Source: Methanobrevibacter olleyae (lineage in GTDB: Archaea > Methanobacteriota > Methanobacteria > Methanobacteriales > Methanobacteriaceae). Taken from it: DNA of 40,523 nt. The translations under genes and the position numbers were made by a program. The notes beneath the pieces are model-generated. The model worked only from the letters and a program-made list of their open reading frames with translations. It had not been told where the DNA came from and made no database searches. Location of the stretch: positions 1 to 40,523 of the forward strand of contig SUTG01000013.1 of assembly GCA_015063035.1 (NCBI GenBank), read 5' to 3'. Positions 2-8,245 of this stretch are shown one piece after another (position 1 is the stretch's first letter; each line of letters starts with the position of its first letter).

Positions 2-2131
2 TTCTCATTCAACTCAAGGAATCTCCTAATTGATGGAAACTCCATTAAAACAATTGGCCCTGGTGAAACTTACCTTTGCAACAATAGAAGCTGTTTGAAT
101 ATTTTGGTTCAAGGCGTGACAATCTGCCCTGATGGAACCGTTATCTGTCCTGATGGAACCACATATAGCCCTGATGATTATGAGGTATGTGCAGATGGTA
201 CAATAATCTGTCCTGATGGAACAACTATCTGTGCAGACGGCACTACAATATGCGCTGATGGAACTCAAATATGCTCAGACGGAACAATGATTTGCACCGA
301 TGGAACAACTGTCTGTGCTGATGGAACCATTATCTGTGCAGATGGAACACAATATGTTCCTGGAAACTATACTACTTGTGCAGACGGTTCTATAATCTGT
401 CCTGATGGAAAAGTGATTTGTATAGATGGAACCATATATTCTCCGGAAGAATGCGAAAATCTCACAAACGGCGAAATCCGTTGTCCCGATGGCACTGTCC
501 TTTGTCCAGACGGAACTGTTTTATGCACTGATGGATCTACCATCTGTCCTGATGGCAGAACAATTTGTGCTGATGGAACCATTATATGTGCAGATGGATA
601 CAGTATCTGTCCAGATGGGTCTATAATCTGTCCTGATGGAAGCAATATCTCTTCTGTTGATTACACTAATGAAAGCGGTATAATTACCCTTCCAGACAAT
701 ACAACCATTTATGAAAATGGAACTGTTGTTTGTCCTGATGGCACTGTAATCTGTCCAGATGGCACTGGTGGCTTTGGATTATTAGATGGAGTTATTCCAG
801 GAACCCATATGATTTCTGGCCTATTTAGAACTTATGGTGCTTTATTTGTCCATTCATCTAATGTCAATTTCACTAACAACATTGTCAATGTAAGTTCAGC
901 ACTTGGTCCTTTCTATAAGTTAAATGAATCTTGCAATACTATTGCGGGAGTATTCATTCATTATGGAGGTTTCAACAACACCATTTCAGGCAACAACATA
1001 ACTCTTGATTCCAATGATCCAGTCATTTATGCTATCGGTATCATTGGAGCAAGTTCAAACAGCACTGCAGTAGGATCTAAAAACAATTCCTTTATTAACA
1101 ATAATGTTTTTGTCAAAGGTCCTTTCCATGGTGTGGGAATCTATTTGGGATACAAGGCAATCAATTCAACATTTGCAAATAATTTCATCATCAATGCAGT
1201 CAATCCACATGAAGTCGTTAATAGGACTCTTGTTGAAAATGATGAAAACAATCTTGATGGAAACAGCTTTGAAATAATTACTCCACATAATACTGCTATA
1301 ACCGTTTCAAATGCTTCATTCAAATGGAATAATGCAAACAAGAGCATAACCATCACTCTTAAAGACATTAATGGAACTCCAATAGCAAACAAAACTATTA
1401 TTTTCACTTTAGATGGCAAGAATTACACTGGCGTAAGCAATGCAAATGGTGTAGCAACTGTTAAAGTTACCATATCTAAACTTGGAACTTTCGATATTGT
1501 GGCATATTTCAATGGAATTGATAACTTTATTGCATCTACAAATACAGGAAAACTCACTTTAACCAAAGACAGCACAAGCTTGACTTCATCTGGCAAGACT
1601 TATGCAGTAACTGCAAGTTCAAAATCAATTACATTAACCTTGAAAGATGGAAACGGAAATGTAATTGCAAATAAAAAAGTCACAGCAACTGTAAATGGAA
1701 AGACCTACACTGCAACAACCAATTCCAAAGGCGTAGCTACTTTCAAATTGACTTTAAAAGCAGTGAAAACATTTACTGTATCACTTAAATTTGCAGGAGA
1801 CAGCTATTACACTGCAAGCAGCAAGTCCATAAAGGTTAAGGTGACTAAGACCAAAACCAAATTGACTGTACCTAAAAAGACTTATAAGAAAGCCAAAAAG
1901 GTTAAAAAATTAACTGCAACCTTAAAGGACCAATTTGGAAAAGTCATCAAATCCAAAAAGGTCACTTTTACTGTCAACGGCAAGAAATACACTGCAAGAA
2001 CCAATAAAAAAGGTGTAGCTACTGTAAAAGTTAAATTGTCTAAAAAGAAAACCTATAAGGTTACAGTTAAGTTTGCTGGTGACAAGACTTACTATGCAGT
2101 TAAAAAGACAGGTAAAGTTGTAATAAAATAG
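2..2131 (+). CDS. Adhesin-like surface protein with Cys heptad array (5' end outside window)
   Basis: The reading frame is open to the left edge, so the N-terminus and any signal peptide are missing; 709 residues are visible. A first stretch (NSRNLLIDGNSIKTIGPG) looks like parallel beta-helix. At about nt 122-769 it is followed by a heptad array of the form [IVL]C[PAST]DG[TS]x with 23 cysteine-bearing units. After that come beta-helix-like repeats rich in Asn (FTNNIVNV, NNTISGNNITL, FINNNVFV) and, from about nt 1290, three Ig-like (Big_1-type) domains of about 90 residues. The last Ig-like domain is extremely Lys-rich and ends the protein without a membrane anchor. This architecture is known from adhesin-like proteins of Methanobrevibacter, which are secreted and thought to attach to the pseudomurein wall, other microbes or host material. 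The function in adhesion is inferred from the family, not from a specific binding motif. Confidence 0.85.
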   Translation, partial: FSFNSRNLLIDGNSIKTIGPGETYLCNNRSCLNILVQGVTICPDGTVICPDGTTYSPDDYEVCADGTIICPDGTTICADGTTICADGTQICSDGTMICTDGTTVCADGTIICADGTQYVPGNYTTCADGSIICPDGKVICIDGTIYSPEECENLTNGEIRCPDGTVLCPDGTVLCTDGSTICPDGRTICADGTIICADGYSICPDGSIICPDGSNISSVDYTNESGIITLPDNTTIYENGTVVCPDGTVICPDGTGGFGLLDGVIPGTHMISGLFRTYGALFVHSSNVNFTNNIVNVSSALGPFYKLNESCNTIAGVFIHYGGFNNTISGNNITLDSNDPVIYAIGIIGASSNSTAVGSKNNSFINNNVFVKGPFHGVGIYLGYKAINSTFANNFIINAVNPHEVVNRTLVENDENNLDGNSFEIITPHNTAITVSNASFKWNNANKSITITLKDINGTPIANKTIIFTLDGKNYTGVSNANGVATVKVTISKLGTFDIVAYFNGIDNFIASTNTGKLTLTKDSTSLTSSGKTYAVTASSKSITLTLKDGNGNVIANKKVTATVNGKTYTATTNSKGVATFKLTLKAVKTFTVSLKFAGDSYYTASSKSIKVKVTKTKTKLTVPKKTYKKAKKVKKLTATLKDQFGKVIKSKKVTFTVNGKKYTARTNKKGVATVKVKLSKKKTYKVTVKFAGDKTYYAVKKTGKVVIK
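122..769 (+). repeat. In-frame 21-bp repeat coding Cys-x-Asp-Gly heptads
   Basis: About 30 consecutive seven-residue units, 23 of which carry Cys-[Pro/Ala/Ser/Thr/Ile]-Asp-Gly. Units without Cys still keep the length of seven (YSPDDYE, YVPGNYT), except for one six-residue slip between about nt 650 and 735. At DNA level the units are variants of tgtcctgatggaac, so the array probably grew by slippage or unequal recombination and then diverged. Confidence 0.9.
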
Positions 2132-3625: not shown

Positions 3626-3921
3626 GGTAATGGTAAGCCGAAGACAGCTGCTGGTTTTATAACTAGGGAAACTCCGCACATCATATAGACTGTAAAGTTG
3701 AAAGACTTATGCTGAGAAGTATGACTCTGGAGCAGAAACGACACGGCCTTTGATGGATGACAATGATGCTTGACTGATGGACATTAAAGGAATCGGTGAA
3801 ACGGCCAATCTACAGGATGCAAGAACAAATATGCTGATGACCTCTAAGGGAAGCAGAGTAGTTCGCTAAGATGAATGCTGTATAAAACAGAATGTGGGTT
3901 ACTCTCGGCATACCATTACAA
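3626..3921 (+). ncRNA. rnpB: RNase P RNA, archaeal type
   Basis: The ribozyme subunit of RNase P, which trims tRNA 5' ends. Helix P1 is clear: GGTAATGGTA followed by GCCGA at the 5' end pairs with TCGGC and TACCATTAC at the 3' end. Conserved blocks are the P4 5' strand with GGGAAACTCCGC, an internal GCAGAAACGACAC, and near the 3' end ACAGAATGTGGGTTAC. The length of about 296 nt suits archaeal type A RNA. A TATA-like TTTATACTAG at 3601-3610 sits about 25 bases before the proposed 5' end, which agrees with direct initiation there. Confidence 0.95.
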
Positions 3922-4019
3922 GTCTTGGATTTAGTCCATAGAACCTTGATCAAAATAGTTTAAATGCTAATTGGAATTCCATTTCTTTTTTTAATATCTC
4001 TTTTAATACTCTCTTTTTT

Positions 4020-4721
4020 TTACTTAGTTTCATAAGTTTCAAGAGGTTTTAAAATTAATGTTTTGCAGTTTGGGTTTTCATTTTTAACCAATTGCATAAA
4101 GTAATTTCCGTCCTGTTTAATTGAAGGAAATGTATTGTAATGCATAGGAATCACTATTTTTGGATTAATCCATTTTGCAGCTATTGAAGCTTCTTTTGGG
4201 TCCATTGTAAATAGGTTTCCTATTGGCAGCAATGCAATATCAGGTTTATATATTTCCCCAACTACAAATTTTAAATCAGAGAATAATCCAGTGTCCCCTG
4301 CATGAAAAATCTTAATGTCATTTTTGAAGTCAAATAGGAAACTTCCAGGATTTCCAGCATATTTAATATCCCCTTCAAAGTCGTAAGAGGATGTATGCCT
4401 TGCATCAAGCATTCTAATGCTCATATGATCTGTGGAAATTTCGCTGCCATAATTAATTCCTAATGAGCGAATTCCACTTTTTTGCAAATATTGGGATATT
4501 TCATAATTTGAGATAACCAATGCGTTTGTGTTTCTAGCTATTTCAATTGCATCCCCGAAATGGTCTCCATGTGCATGTGTAATGCATATGATGTCCGGAT
4601 TCAATTCATTAATTGAAATCGGGCAGCTTGGATTTCCTTGAATGAATGGGTCGACTAAAATGTTCAGCCCATCATTTCTTATCAATTCAAATGCAGAATG
4701 CCCTAACCATTTTAATTTCAT
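4020..4721 (-). CDS. UPF0173 family metal-dependent hydrolase (MBL fold)
   Basis: 233 residues beginning MKLKWLGHSAF, the typical start of UPF0173 proteins. The metallo-beta-lactamase metal site is visible as THAHGDHFGD (about residues 49-58), followed by GDTGLFSDL and the late MHYNTFP histidine. The physiological substrate of this family is not established. It is the second gene after the FrnE-like gene, with a 21-base gap, so the two probably share a transcript that starts in the divergent promoter near 5500. That links it to the redox island by position only. Confidence 0.9.
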   Translation of the reverse strand: MKLKWLGHSAFELIRNDGLNILVDPFIQGNPSCPISINELNPDIICITHAHGDHFGDAIEIARNTNALVISNYEISQYLQKSGIRSLGINYGSEISTDHMSIRMLDARHTSSYDFEGDIKYAGNPGSFLFDFKNDIKIFHAGDTGLFSDLKFVVGEIYKPDIALLPIGNLFTMDPKEASIAAKWINPKIVIPMHYNTFPSIKQDGNYFMQLVKNENPNCKTLILKPLETYETK

Positions 4722-4742: not shown

Positions 4743-5471
4743 TTAAATCCTGCAAACTCCATCTTTACAGCTATCAACATCTTTATTTCCATCTTTTTTC
4801 TTTTCATTTTCTTTAATTGCATTTTCTTTATTTTCATCACTTATCTGTTTCAAAACTGTTTTAAAATCTTCATAGGATAATGCACCAGGGATAGAATACT
4901 TTTCATCTAATAAATAGAATGGTACTGCATGTATGCCGCCCATCAATGCTATTTCTTCATCTTTTTCAACTTCCTTATTATAAAGGTCTGTGTTTAAGAC
5001 TTCTTCACTTTCCTCTCTATTTAATCCTATTTCATCGCAGATGTTTAATAGCACATCTTTATCAGCTAATTTCAAATTTTTAGTAAAATATGCATCAAAT
5101 AATGAATTGCCTAATTTTTCAACAAGTTTTGCGTCTCCTTTGCTTTGTGCAAATTTCATCAACCTATGTGCATCACGAGTATTTGTATATAATGTGCTTG
5201 AATATTTAAAGTCTATTCCTTCTTCAATGCCTAATCTGGAAATATTGCTCACTTCTTTTTCCGCATCATTTAATGATAATCCATATTTAACTGCAAATCT
5301 TTCAACAGTTGTGGATTCAACATCTTTAGGCGCGTTTTGGTCTAATTCAAAAGCACGAGTATCAAATTCCACTTCATTTTCTAATCCTAAATCCTTAATG
5401 GTTTTTTTTAATCTTGTATTCCCAATGTAACAGTATGGACAAGCGAAATCGCTCCAGTATGTGATTTTCAT
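4743..5471 (-). CDS. DsbA-family FrnE-like thiol oxidoreductase
   Basis: 242 residues with a thioredoxin/DsbA fold. The active-site CPYC lies at residues 11-14 (WSDFACPYCYIG), and the cis-Pro region reads GGIHAVPFYL. No signal peptide, so it is cytoplasmic like FrnE. The C-terminus ends in CKDGVC (residues 235-240), a C-x4-C pair; a C-x2-C plus C-terminal C-x4-C arrangement has been described for Deinococcus FrnE, which acts in oxidative stress tolerance. GAGGCGAT about five bases upstream is the ribosome binding site. It is divergent from an HxlR regulator and followed by a UPF0173 gene. Confidence 0.88.
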   Translation of the reverse strand: MKITYWSDFACPYCYIGNTRLKKTIKDLGLENEVEFDTRAFELDQNAPKDVESTTVERFAVKYGLSLNDAEKEVSNISRLGIEEGIDFKYSSTLYTNTRDAHRLMKFAQSKGDAKLVEKLGNSLFDAYFTKNLKLADKDVLLNICDEIGLNREESEEVLNTDLYNKEVEKDEEIALMGGIHAVPFYLLDEKYSIPGALSYEDFKTVLKQISDENKENAIKENEKKKDGNKDVDSCKDGVCRI

Positions 5472-5532
5472 TTTATCGCCTCTTGAAAAATTATATAAAT
5501 GTATATATACAATATTTAATTAATAAACGAAT

Positions 5533-5552
5533 TAGTAATTTTAAAATTACTA
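5533..5552. promoter_or_regulatory. 20-bp perfect palindrome, predicted HxlR operator (site A)
   Basis: TAGTAATTTTAAAATTACTA is a perfect palindrome with the core GTAA-N8-TTAC, in the 123-base space between the frnE-like gene and hxlR. The same core stands in front of both downstream flavoprotein genes (sites at 6100 and 7200). Autoregulation of hxlR and control of the frnE-like operon are inferred. Confidence 0.65.
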
Positions 5553-5594
5553 TTTTAAAAATACTCATTGAAAATTAAATTTTGTTTTGATAAT

Positions 5595-5975
5595 ATGATT
5601 GAAAATAATATTTGCCCTATTGGATCTACTTTGGATTTTTTTAATAGAAAATGGATTTTTTGTATTTTATCTAATATTTTTAGAGGCATGAAACATTTTT
5701 CTGAATTTAAAAAAGCTAATCCTACAATCAGTAATCATATATTGGCCGAAACCTTAAAATATATGGAAGAAAACGATTTGATTATAAAAACAGTTATTGA
5801 TGATGGCCCTAAATTAAAAACAGAATATTCATTAACTGAAAAGGGCAAAAAAACCAATAGGATACTATATGAAATTACTTCTTATTATTTCAATGAATTG
5901 AATCTTGTTGGATATGATGATTCTCAAATTGAAAGCATTTTAAAAGAGTATAAAAACGCTTTTGAACTTGAATAG
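5595..5975 (+). CDS. HxlR-family winged-helix transcriptional regulator
   Basis: 126 residues from the ATG at 5595; a TTG at 5568 would add nine residues, and neither has a clear ribosome binding site. The N-terminus IENNICPIGSTLDFFNRKW is the hallmark of the HxlR/DUF24 family and is followed by a winged helix (FSEFKKANPTISNHILAETL, then LKTEYSLTEKGK). With the ATG start, the Cys before Pro is residue 7, about where YodB-type repressors of this family carry their redox-sensing Cys. Position and shared palindromes suggest it controls the divergent frnE-like operon, itself and the two following flavin oxidoreductases. Confidence 0.9.
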   Translation: MIENNICPIGSTLDFFNRKWIFCILSNIFRGMKHFSEFKKANPTISNHILAETLKYMEENDLIIKTVIDDGPKLKTEYSLTEKGKKTNRILYEITSYYFNELNLVGYDDSQIESILKEYKNAFELE

Positions 5976-6041
5976 TTGTCTTTTTAATTCTTTTTTCATT
6001 TATATTCCCAATTATCCATATATCAAGATTTCATCCTTATA

Positions 6042-6057
6042 ATAATTCTATAATTGT
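6042..6057. promoter_or_regulatory. Degenerate copy of the GTAA-N8-TTAC palindrome (site B)
   Basis: ATAATTCTATAATTGT matches the perfect site at 6100 in 13 of 16 positions and is, like it, followed by a run such as TTTTCTTTTTATA. It may be a decayed promoter/operator duplicate or a weak second site. Confidence 0.35.
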
Positions 6058-6099
6058 TGTTTTCTTTTTATATTTTTTTAAATAATCTGTTTTTTTATA

Positions 6100-6115
6100 G
6101 TAATTCTATAATTAC
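6100..6115. promoter_or_regulatory. GTAA-N8-TTAC operator of the first flavin oxidoreductase (site C)
   Basis: GTAATTCTATAATTAC has six-base arms and a four-base centre. A TATA box (CTTTTTATA, about 6121-6129) follows, and the ATG at 6153 is 37 bases after the palindrome. The distance from TATA box to ATG is about 25 bases, so the mRNA may be leaderless. Confidence 0.65.
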
Positions 6116-6152
6116 TGCTCTCTTTTTATATTCTTTTCAATAAACTAATTTT

Positions 6153-7139
6153 ATGAAAGACATATTTGATAATTGTAGATTGGGAGACTTGGAACTTAAC
6201 AGTCGAGTTATAAGGACAGGTCTTTGGCAAACCCAGACAATGGGTGAACTTTATGAAAAATATGAAAATATTGCTAAAAGTGGTGTCGGATTGATTATCA
6301 CTGAATTAATATCATTATACCCTAAGGATAAATTTTCAGAGTATTCAATTAAAAGTGGTCGTCCTTCTTTTATGATTGATGCTAAAAGACTAGCAGAGAT
6401 TAGCCATAGTCATGATGTTCCTATTTTAGGCCAGATTGAGTTCATAAAATATGATAGGGGTATCGATTTGGATATTGGTGTTAATGATTTGACTTTGGAA
6501 GATATTCGTCAGATTCAGCAAGACATAATCATAGCAAGTCAAAAGCTTAAGTTGGCAGGTTTTGATGGGATTCAATTGGCATTAGGTAATAACTTCTTCT
6601 TGTCTAAATTCATTAATCCATATTTTAATCAAAGGTCAGATGATTATGGGGGCAATACATTTAATCGTATGAGACTTGTATTGGAATTGATTAAAGTCAT
6701 GAAAAATAACTTAAGTTTTCATATAAGCTGTAAAGTAAATGCTTTTGATGGAAGGAAAGGTGGAATTGATGCAAAAGAGAGCATTGAAATTTGTAAACTT
6801 CTTGAAAAGGTTGGAGTGGATAGCATTCAAGTGACAAAGCCTTTATCTCCATTGTATTTCACAAAAGATGTTTCAGATGAAGATGAATTGATTGAATTTA
6901 GTCAAAATTTGATTGAGAGCACTAATGTTCCGGTTATTTTAGGTGGAGGATTCAATAGCATGGAACATATGAATGAAACATTAAATAAGACAGATATTGA
7001 TTTTCTATCTATGTATAGGCCTTTTGTTGCTGAAGAAGACTTCTTAGAAAAATGGAAAATGGACGGTGAAGGCACATCAAGATGTAAAATGTGCAATAAC
7101 TGTTATAGAACAAAAACAAGTACCTGTTACCATTATTGA
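6153..7139 (+). CDS. NADH:flavin oxidoreductase / old yellow enzyme-like FMN protein, copy 1
   Basis: 328 residues, only the FMN-binding TIM barrel of the OYE/2,4-dienoyl-CoA reductase family, without the C-terminal FAD/NAD half. The typical NQRSDDYGGNTFNRMR segment follows the barrel's active-site strand. The place of the usual HGAHGYLL motif reads LALGNNFFL, so the substrate-activating His is absent. The C-terminus carries C-x2-C-x2-C-x7-C (CKMCNNC...C), similar but not identical to the Fe-S ligands of FadH-type enzymes. No ribosome binding site. Substrate unknown; reduction of enones, quinones or similar electrophiles is suggested by family and by the HxlR-type operator. Confidence 0.85.
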   Translation: MKDIFDNCRLGDLELNSRVIRTGLWQTQTMGELYEKYENIAKSGVGLIITELISLYPKDKFSEYSIKSGRPSFMIDAKRLAEISHSHDVPILGQIEFIKYDRGIDLDIGVNDLTLEDIRQIQQDIIIASQKLKLAGFDGIQLALGNNFFLSKFINPYFNQRSDDYGGNTFNRMRLVLELIKVMKNNLSFHISCKVNAFDGRKGGIDAKESIEICKLLEKVGVDSIQVTKPLSPLYFTKDVSDEDELIEFSQNLIESTNVPVILGGGFNSMEHMNETLNKTDIDFLSMYRPFVAEEDFLEKWKMDGEGTSRCKMCNNCYRTKTSTCYHY

Positions 7140-7199
7140 TTTTTTTAAAATAGGTGGATGGCTATTAAATTCTTGTCCCTTTTTAGAAATTATATTATG

Positions 7200-7215
7200 G
7201 TAATTGTTGAGTTAC
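7200..7215. promoter_or_regulatory. GTAA-N8-TTAC operator of the second flavin oxidoreductase (site D)
   Basis: GTAATTGTTGAGTTAC keeps the outer GTAA and TTAC and the total length of 16. A TATA box CTTTTTTATA follows, and the ATG at 7253 is again exactly 37 bases after the site. The promoter block was apparently duplicated together with the gene. Confidence 0.6.
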
Positions 7216-7252
7216 TCTCCCTTTTTTATAGTATTTAAAATAAACTAAATGC

Positions 7253-8245
7253 ATGAAAGACATATTCGATAATACAAAATTTGGCAGATTTAATCTTAAA
7301 AGCAGGATTATTAGAACTGGATTATGGGAATCACAAAATGAAGGTACACATGGCCTTTCTCAAGATATCTTTAACAGATATGAAAATTTAGCAAAAAACA
7401 ATGTGGGTCTGATTATCACTGAATTGATTTCATTATATTCTCATGATAGGTTTAGCGATTATTCAGATTACATCAATTATCCTTACTTCATCAAGGAATT
7501 CAAGGAATTGACTGAAATGGTCCATGAGCATTATATCCCTATTTTTGCACAGATTGGCTTCATCAACTGTAATGTCAATGGAAAGCAGATGATGGAAGTC
7601 AATGATTTGACTATTGAGGATATAAGAAAAATTCAAGCGGATTACCTTGTAGCTGCTAAAAAAATTGCATTTGCAGGATTTGATGGAATACAATTGAATA
7701 TTGGCAATAACTATTTCCTATCAAGGGTTATGGATCCATTTGAAAATCAAAGGGAAGACAATTATGGTGGAAATACATATAATAGAGTCAGAATGGTATT
7801 GGAGATAATCAAATTCATTAAGGATACAACTGATTTGCATGTTCACTGTCGTGTGAATTTGTATAAGGATCCTGAGGATTCACTTGAGATCTGCAGGATA
7901 CTTGCTGAAAATGGTGCAGATAGTTTGCAGATTACCAAGTTCCTTTCCCCACAATACTTTAGGAAAGCATTGTCAAATGAAAACATGTTGGTGGATTTTA
8001 CAGATAAAGTTGCAAGTGAGGTTTCAATCCCTGTTGTCTTAGGTGGAGGATTATCCAATATGAAGTCTATGAATGATTTAATGAACAGAACAAATATTGA
8101 ATTTTTCTCAATGCACAGGCCATTTGTGAGGAACCAATCCCTATTGAGCGAATGGAAAGAGAATGGGTATGGTGAATCAGATTGCAAAACATGTAATAAC
8201 TGCTATTGGAAAAAGGATAGCACTTGCCTTATCAAATCAGAATGA
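7253..8245 (+). CDS. NADH:flavin oxidoreductase / old yellow enzyme-like FMN protein, copy 2
   Basis: 330 residues, a clear paralogue of the preceding gene: both start MKDIFDN, share TGLW, GLIITELISLY, NQR-D-YGGNT-NR-R and LGGG, and end in the same Cys cluster (CKTCNNC...C). It too consists of the FMN barrel only and has LNIGNNYFL where the OYE catalytic His would be. It has its own copy of the palindrome-TATA-start block, so the two genes may be expressed as separate leaderless transcripts under one regulator. The proteins have diverged widely, which argues for distinct substrates or partners rather than a recent duplication. Confidence 0.85.
   Translation: MKDIFDNTKFGRFNLKSRIIRTGLWESQNEGTHGLSQDIFNRYENLAKNNVGLIITELISLYSHDRFSDYSDYINYPYFIKEFKELTEMVHEHYIPIFAQIGFINCNVNGKQMMEVNDLTIEDIRKIQADYLVAAKKIAFAGFDGIQLNIGNNYFLSRVMDPFENQREDNYGGNTYNRVRMVLEIIKFIKDTTDLHVHCRVNLYKDPEDSLEICRILAENGADSLQITKFLSPQYFRKALSNENMLVDFTDKVASEVSIPVVLGGGLSNMKSMNDLMNRTNIEFFSMHRPFVRNQSLLSEWKENGYGESDCKTCNNCYWKKDSTCLIKSE

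Follow-up and report, generated by a model that had tools for sequence, protein, structure and literature searches.

A conserved palindromic operator family and its probable HxlR/DUF24 regulator at a thiol and flavin oxidoreductase locus of Methanobrevibacter olleyae

We found that a locus of Methanobrevibacter olleyae encoding an HxlR/DUF24 regulator, a frnE-like thiol oxidoreductase and two OYE-family flavin oxidoreductases carries a real and conserved regulon, which is marked by copies of one palindromic sequence and is probably autoregulated. It is reasonably likely, in our judgement, that these sites are the HxlR protein's own operators and that they define an autoregulated frnE/OYE regulon with a redox trigger. 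The binding of HxlR, the redox role and signal, the direction of control and the substrates of the enzymes are predictions made from sequence.

The open-access literature, to which our search was confined, yielded no archaeal HxlR/DUF24 operator or regulon, and the regulon looks like one so far undescribed. HxlR paralogs abound in these gut methanogens, where few redox regulators are known. An operator at fixed spacing from the TATA box, together with a likely cognate regulator and a short list of targets, makes redox or electrophile sensing in a strict anaerobe directly testable. Moreover, with so rigid a geometry one could test cleanly if the position of an operator decides between activation and repression in archaea.

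The locus and its operator sites

The window (the whole stretch of DNA analysed, 40,523 nucleotides) contains the following features of the locus:

4020-4721, minus strand: gene for a UPF0173-type metal-dependent hydrolase of the MBL fold (NCBIfam PRK00685, 1.6e-82)
4743-5471, minus strand: frnE-like gene for a DsbA-family thiol oxidoreductase (Pfam DSBA, 1.5e-31), divergent from hxlR
5520-5527, minus strand: predicted frnE TATA element, TTTATTAA, 7 bp from operator A
5533-5552 (core 5535-5550), no strand: operator A, in the frnE/hxlR intergenic region
5595-5975, plus strand: hxlR, HxlR/DUF24 regulator of 126 aa (Pfam HxlR, 8.3e-17; AlphaFold model and Foldseek)
6042-6057, no strand: degenerate operator copy
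6100-6115, no strand: operator B, preceding OYE1
6125-6130, plus strand: predicted OYE1 TATA box, TTTATA
6153-7139, plus strand: OYE1, OYE-family flavin oxidoreductase of 328 aa (Pfam Oxidored_FMN, 6.5e-27) with a C-terminal CxxCxxCx7C motif
7200-7215, no strand: operator C, preceding OYE2
7225-7230, plus strand: predicted OYE2 TATA box, TTTATA, spaced as for OYE1
7253-8245, plus strand: OYE2, OYE-family flavin oxidoreductase of 330 aa (Pfam Oxidored_FMN, 6.8e-26)

The most likely start of hxlR is the ATG at 5595. The MBL hydrolase gene lies directly downstream of frnE on the same strand, adjoins it in most relatives and is its probable operon partner. OYE2 is 50% identical to OYE1, and both score far above the Oxidored_FMN threshold of 27 bits (95.1 bits for OYE1 and 91.8 for OYE2). 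The CxxCxxCx7C motif is invariant in 8 OYE sequences and presumably binds an Fe-S cluster. The His pair of the OYE substrate site (HGAHGY-type) is absent: OYE1 has QLALGNNFF where 8pun has ELHGAHGYL, and the paralogs also carry GNN. At 95-2131 (plus strand) lies an adhesin-like ORF, the first third of which is made up of ICPDGT/ICADGT repeats.

The initial annotation of this DNA had reported GTAA-N8-TTAC between the frnE-like gene and hxlR and again before each flavin gene, and exact matches were indeed present at 5535, 6100 and 7200, the only three in the window. Shuffled windows contained 0.51 such sites on average, and three or more in 1 of 100 shuffles. Operator A is, as first noted, a perfect 20-bp palindrome, whereas the other two are imperfect, with 16/20 positions matching their own reverse complement at 6098-6117 and 10/20 at 7198-7217. 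The 7200 site is credible through its position and conservation rather than its sequence alone, because GTAATTN4AATTAC with one mismatch is not enriched genome-wide.

The degenerate copy noted earlier at 6042 also proved to be present, with 3 mismatches. It belongs to a stretch duplicated in tandem, which comprises the operator and TATA box of OYE1; 48-mers are 39/48 identical at a 58-bp lag, the window maximum for that lag. In one close relative (G005) the counterpart of this upstream copy is a perfect site.

Conservation of the locus in relatives

Three genera, with more than 20 genomes between them, have orthologous loci, and records from a separate scan were named Methanobrevibacter and Methanosphaera. 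The compared genomes are related, so that the conservation counts do not represent independent events. The order MBL-frnE-[site]-hxlR-[site]-OYE1 was retained in most of them, often followed by [site]-OYE2, and in some an OYE gene was lost or displaced from the cluster. Operator A had 0-1 mismatches in nearly every orthologous locus, and even the exception at the hxlR site (L103) retained GTAA-N8-TTAC. The arms of the site carry about 1.8 bits per base and the central four positions 0.6-0.9.

The spacing to the promoter elements is fixed. In this window the site lies 37 bp from the ATG of both OYE1 and OYE2, as had been noticed at first reading together with a TATA box past the site; TTTATA stands 9 bp past it. 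Across the orthologous loci, the ATG followed the site by 37-39 bp in 25/25 OYE promoters, with TTTATA or TTAAATA starting 8-9 bp past it; in the frnE promoters a TATA-like element stood exactly 7 bp past the site in 23/23 cases (background about 0.03 per position). The hxlR operator lies 11-17 bp before its own ATG in most relatives and 44 bp before it in the window. In many relatives (L101, L102, L105-L107 and others) hxlR ends within the OYE1 operator, its stop codon being the TAA of GTAA.

OYE1 is not under such control in every genome, because among OYE1-like genes in genomes without hxlR1 some carry the motif, some a GTTAGTT variant and some neither. The published lauric-acid transcriptome of M. 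ruminantium, a species in which our search found no close hxlR1, does not mention these genes.

Rarity of the motif and its link to an HxlR subclass

Genome-wide, the 8-base core GTAAN8TTAC gave 49 matches versus 100 for the reversed-pattern control, and GTAATTN4AATTAC at one mismatch gave 21 versus 22; neither is enriched, and the core was dropped as a genome-wide search motif. The longer form GTAAYTN4ARTTAC is rare and yet enriched: 6 sites versus 0 for the control in the 2.28 Mb genome to which the window belongs, and 7 versus 0 in G005. Three of the six sites belong to this locus, one lies between the paralog hxlR2 and a divergent gene for a lumazine-binding domain (37 bp from each start codon), one in a glnA-glxB repeat and one on contig C61. 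The expectation that sites would be restricted to redox genes did not hold for every match, the exceptions being the glnA-glxB repeat and, in relatives, a histone/L7Ae-linked palindrome.

Several further sites were rejected as targets. One-mismatch sites elsewhere in the genome are mostly intragenic, and only the one on C61 stands at the 37-bp spacing to a redox gene. There the site precedes a macrodomain-sirtuin-GPx operon, at first sight a further target; the contig (G000:C61, L234), however, shares 6 kb at 100% identity with a Methanosphaera genome (G143), which makes misbinning probable, and the orthologous promoters carry different motifs. The glnA-glxB site was not counted, as it is part of a 31-bp tandem repeat that also occurs in genomes without close hxlR1/2. 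In G057 and G070, sites of the same sequence fall within large ORFs resembling adhesin genes and are probably due to chance.

The 31-bp repeat itself (about GGCATATTGTAATTTTAGAATTATTTTTTTAA, containing the same palindrome) lies between glnA and a glutamate-synthase-like gene at L041:3020-3318 (G000:C44) and also occurs in L083 and L086-L089; it is perhaps a nitrogen-control element. In several relatives TAGTAATTTTTTAATTACTA recurs a few hundred bases 5' of the gene region for ribosomal protein L7Ae (L238:5837, L239:1771, L240:2024 and L241:83), a location not linked to redox functions.

The connection between the sites and the regulator emerged from the 44 HxlR genes for which sufficient sequence lay upstream, a site being scored with at most one mismatch. 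Where the N-terminal Cys of the product is followed by W-x-x-C, 28/29 genes had the site, against 0/15 of the others (p 7e-11, among related genomes). Members of this subclass carry the same site beside the lumazine-binding-domain gene and beside genes for an FMN reductase and a nitroreductase. Because site and regulator co-travel through different neighbourhoods, there is good indirect evidence that the W-x-x-C HxlR proteins are the binders of the sites. We find it very unlikely that some other regulator recognises the palindromes and that HxlR is a mere neighbour: the glnA-glxB repeat does contain the same 16-mer, even where a genome has no close hxlR1/2, but the sites track the W-x-x-C subclass across three gene neighbourhoods, and every W-x-x-C-linked site falls within the promoter of the regulator itself. 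The original reading of the sites as an operator family tied to HxlR, forming a compact regulon, is thus strongly supported by their rarity, their conservation in more than 20 genomes, their spacing and this co-segregation.

Predicted mode of control and signal

The HxlR protein would bind GTAATT-N4-AATTAC and presumably do so as a dimer. From a site immediately 5' of BRE/TATA it would probably activate frnE and the OYE genes, and from an operator over the core promoter it would repress its own gene; the output would be the FrnE-like thiol oxidoreductase and two OYE-type flavoenzymes. Leaderless OYE transcripts are predicted because the distance from the TATA centre to the ATG is about 25 bp, which would put the operator roughly between -53 and -38. 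Autorepression fits the position of the hxlR operator in most relatives, where it would cover the core promoter so close to the ATG; it is less clear for hxlR of the window with its greater distance.

A position upstream of the predicted TATA box at fixed distance also puts the sites outside the predicted OYE transcripts. This, and the conservation of the arms in sequence beyond mere pairing, argues against the idea that the palindromes act in RNA as hairpins or terminators, which we consider extremely unlikely even though the sites have the form of inverted repeats and the one at OYE1 in many relatives includes the stop codon of hxlR.

The sign of control might also be the opposite, reduced HxlR blocking TFB at the BRE next to each operator, with oxidation or alkylation leading to derepression, as for YodB, QsrR and, as proposed, MsvR; we give this version of the same regulon a substantial chance, if somewhat below even. 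YodB-type relatives leave their DNA upon oxidation or quinone binding, and in Methanosarcina acetivorans the boxes of msvR, just 5' of BRE/TATA of a leaderless promoter, are proposed to mediate repression. On the other hand, OxsR and TrmBL1 activate from upstream of BRE/TATA (and repress from downstream of it), the CopR motif of Pyrococcus stands directly 5' of the BRE at up-regulated genes, and the rigid operator-TATA spacing suits recruitment at least equally well. Activation of frnE/OYE combined with autorepression is therefore only modestly favoured over general repression, the similarly placed MsvR boxes counting against it. A point against the regulon model as a whole is the exact glnA-glxB site, which is not redox-linked.

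Among the archaeal systems, MsvR resembles the present one as an autoregulated methanogen redox regulator with boxes near BRE/TATA and a leaderless promoter, but it has a C-terminal V4R domain and a TTCGTAN4TACGAA operator, in contrast to the single 126-aa HxlR domain and other operator described here. OxsR of Haloferax volcanii is likewise small, archaeal and of winged-helix type, a thiol regulator whose Cys is conserved; it differs in belonging to the TrmB family, in its CG-rich motif and in its aerobic host.

The family assignment of the window HxlR is firm (61.3 bits versus a Pfam gathering score of 20.8). Its best sequence match in the PDB is YodB, and its AlphaFold model (pLDDT 88) matched YodB, HypR, QsrR and HxlR in Foldseek, all with the DUF24 winged-helix fold. 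It has two cysteines only, Cys7 and Cys23; C7 and P8, the N-terminal CP cysteine, are invariant in 17 HxlR sequences. The trigger would probably be oxidation or alkylation of Cys7, and the likewise conserved Cys23 could take part in a disulfide between the two subunits. The sensing region of B. subtilis HxlR abuts helix 2 of the other subunit, and Met26' fills the space there; since Cys23 aligns (in our alignment) one residue beyond Met26', a Cys7-Cys23' inter-subunit disulfide is plausible.

The cysteine arrangements of YodB, HypR and B. subtilis HxlR do not recur in full. YodB of B. subtilis and QsrR of Staphylococcus, which sense quinones and diamide, share with the window HxlR the family, predicted fold and N-terminal CP cysteine, as well as palindromic operators and control over flavin oxidoreductases. 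Yet the C-terminal partner Cys101 of YodB is absent from the window HxlR, and the YodB operator is TACT[7]AGTA, as opposed to GTAATT-N4-AATTAC in an archaeal promoter. HypR of B. subtilis, also a DUF24 protein of like predicted fold, is described as activated by thiol oxidation and as controlling a flavin disulfide reductase and itself. The redox pair of HypR is Cys14-Cys49'. Its Cys49 has no counterpart here, where no second cysteine occurs near position 42 and the only other one is at 23, in W-x-x-C. B. subtilis HxlR, a formaldehyde-responsive activator, is alike in family, predicted fold and N-terminal Cys; its Cys-x-Lys site (C-E-K, Cys11-Lys13) is replaced by C7-P8-I9, and without a Lys two residues past C7 its crosslink chemistry is impossible in the window HxlR. 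For the suggestion made at first reading that the protein senses quinones, aldehydes or disulfide stress, the N-terminal Cys is thus in place, but neither the pairs seen in YodB and HypR nor the Cys-x-Lys site of B. subtilis HxlR; thiol or electrophile stress sensing is plausible and no more.

The signal might also be a substrate rather than a stress, HxlR sensing a substrate of OYE reduction, either an electrophile or an enoate, that comes from plants or the rumen. We regard this as rather doubtful. The OYE-family targets, the rumen and gut origin of the relatives' public records and the reactivity of the DUF24 N-terminal Cys with quinones and aldehydes agree with it, but frnE and the FMN reductase and nitroreductase partners in relatives also suit general redox stress, and the catalytic His pair of the OYE enzymes is replaced.

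On a more speculative reading, Methanobrevibacter and Methanosphaera could share a lineage-specific DUF24 class with Cys7-Cys23' oxidant sensing, acting as position-dependent dual regulators (activation through rigid operator-TATA spacing, repression at their own promoters), the paralogs of which run parallel OYE, nitroreductase and macrodomain regulons through operators of GTTAGTT-N2-AACTAAC and GTTAC-N6-GTAAC types. The HxlR3/nitroreductase and OYE3 promoters contain a GTTAGTTN2AACTAAC-like motif, and OYE1b, on the same contig, has a variant of the motif in the corresponding position ahead of its TATA box (L042:1220-1508 and 3802-3945; L317:2695-2760). In many genomes a macrodomain gene is divergent from an HxlR gene (e.g. 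G068:C7:89120-90383), with GTTAC-N6-GTAAC type palindromes in some of the promoters. Several regulons may thus run side by side, the HxlR paralogs having diverged in their operator codes.
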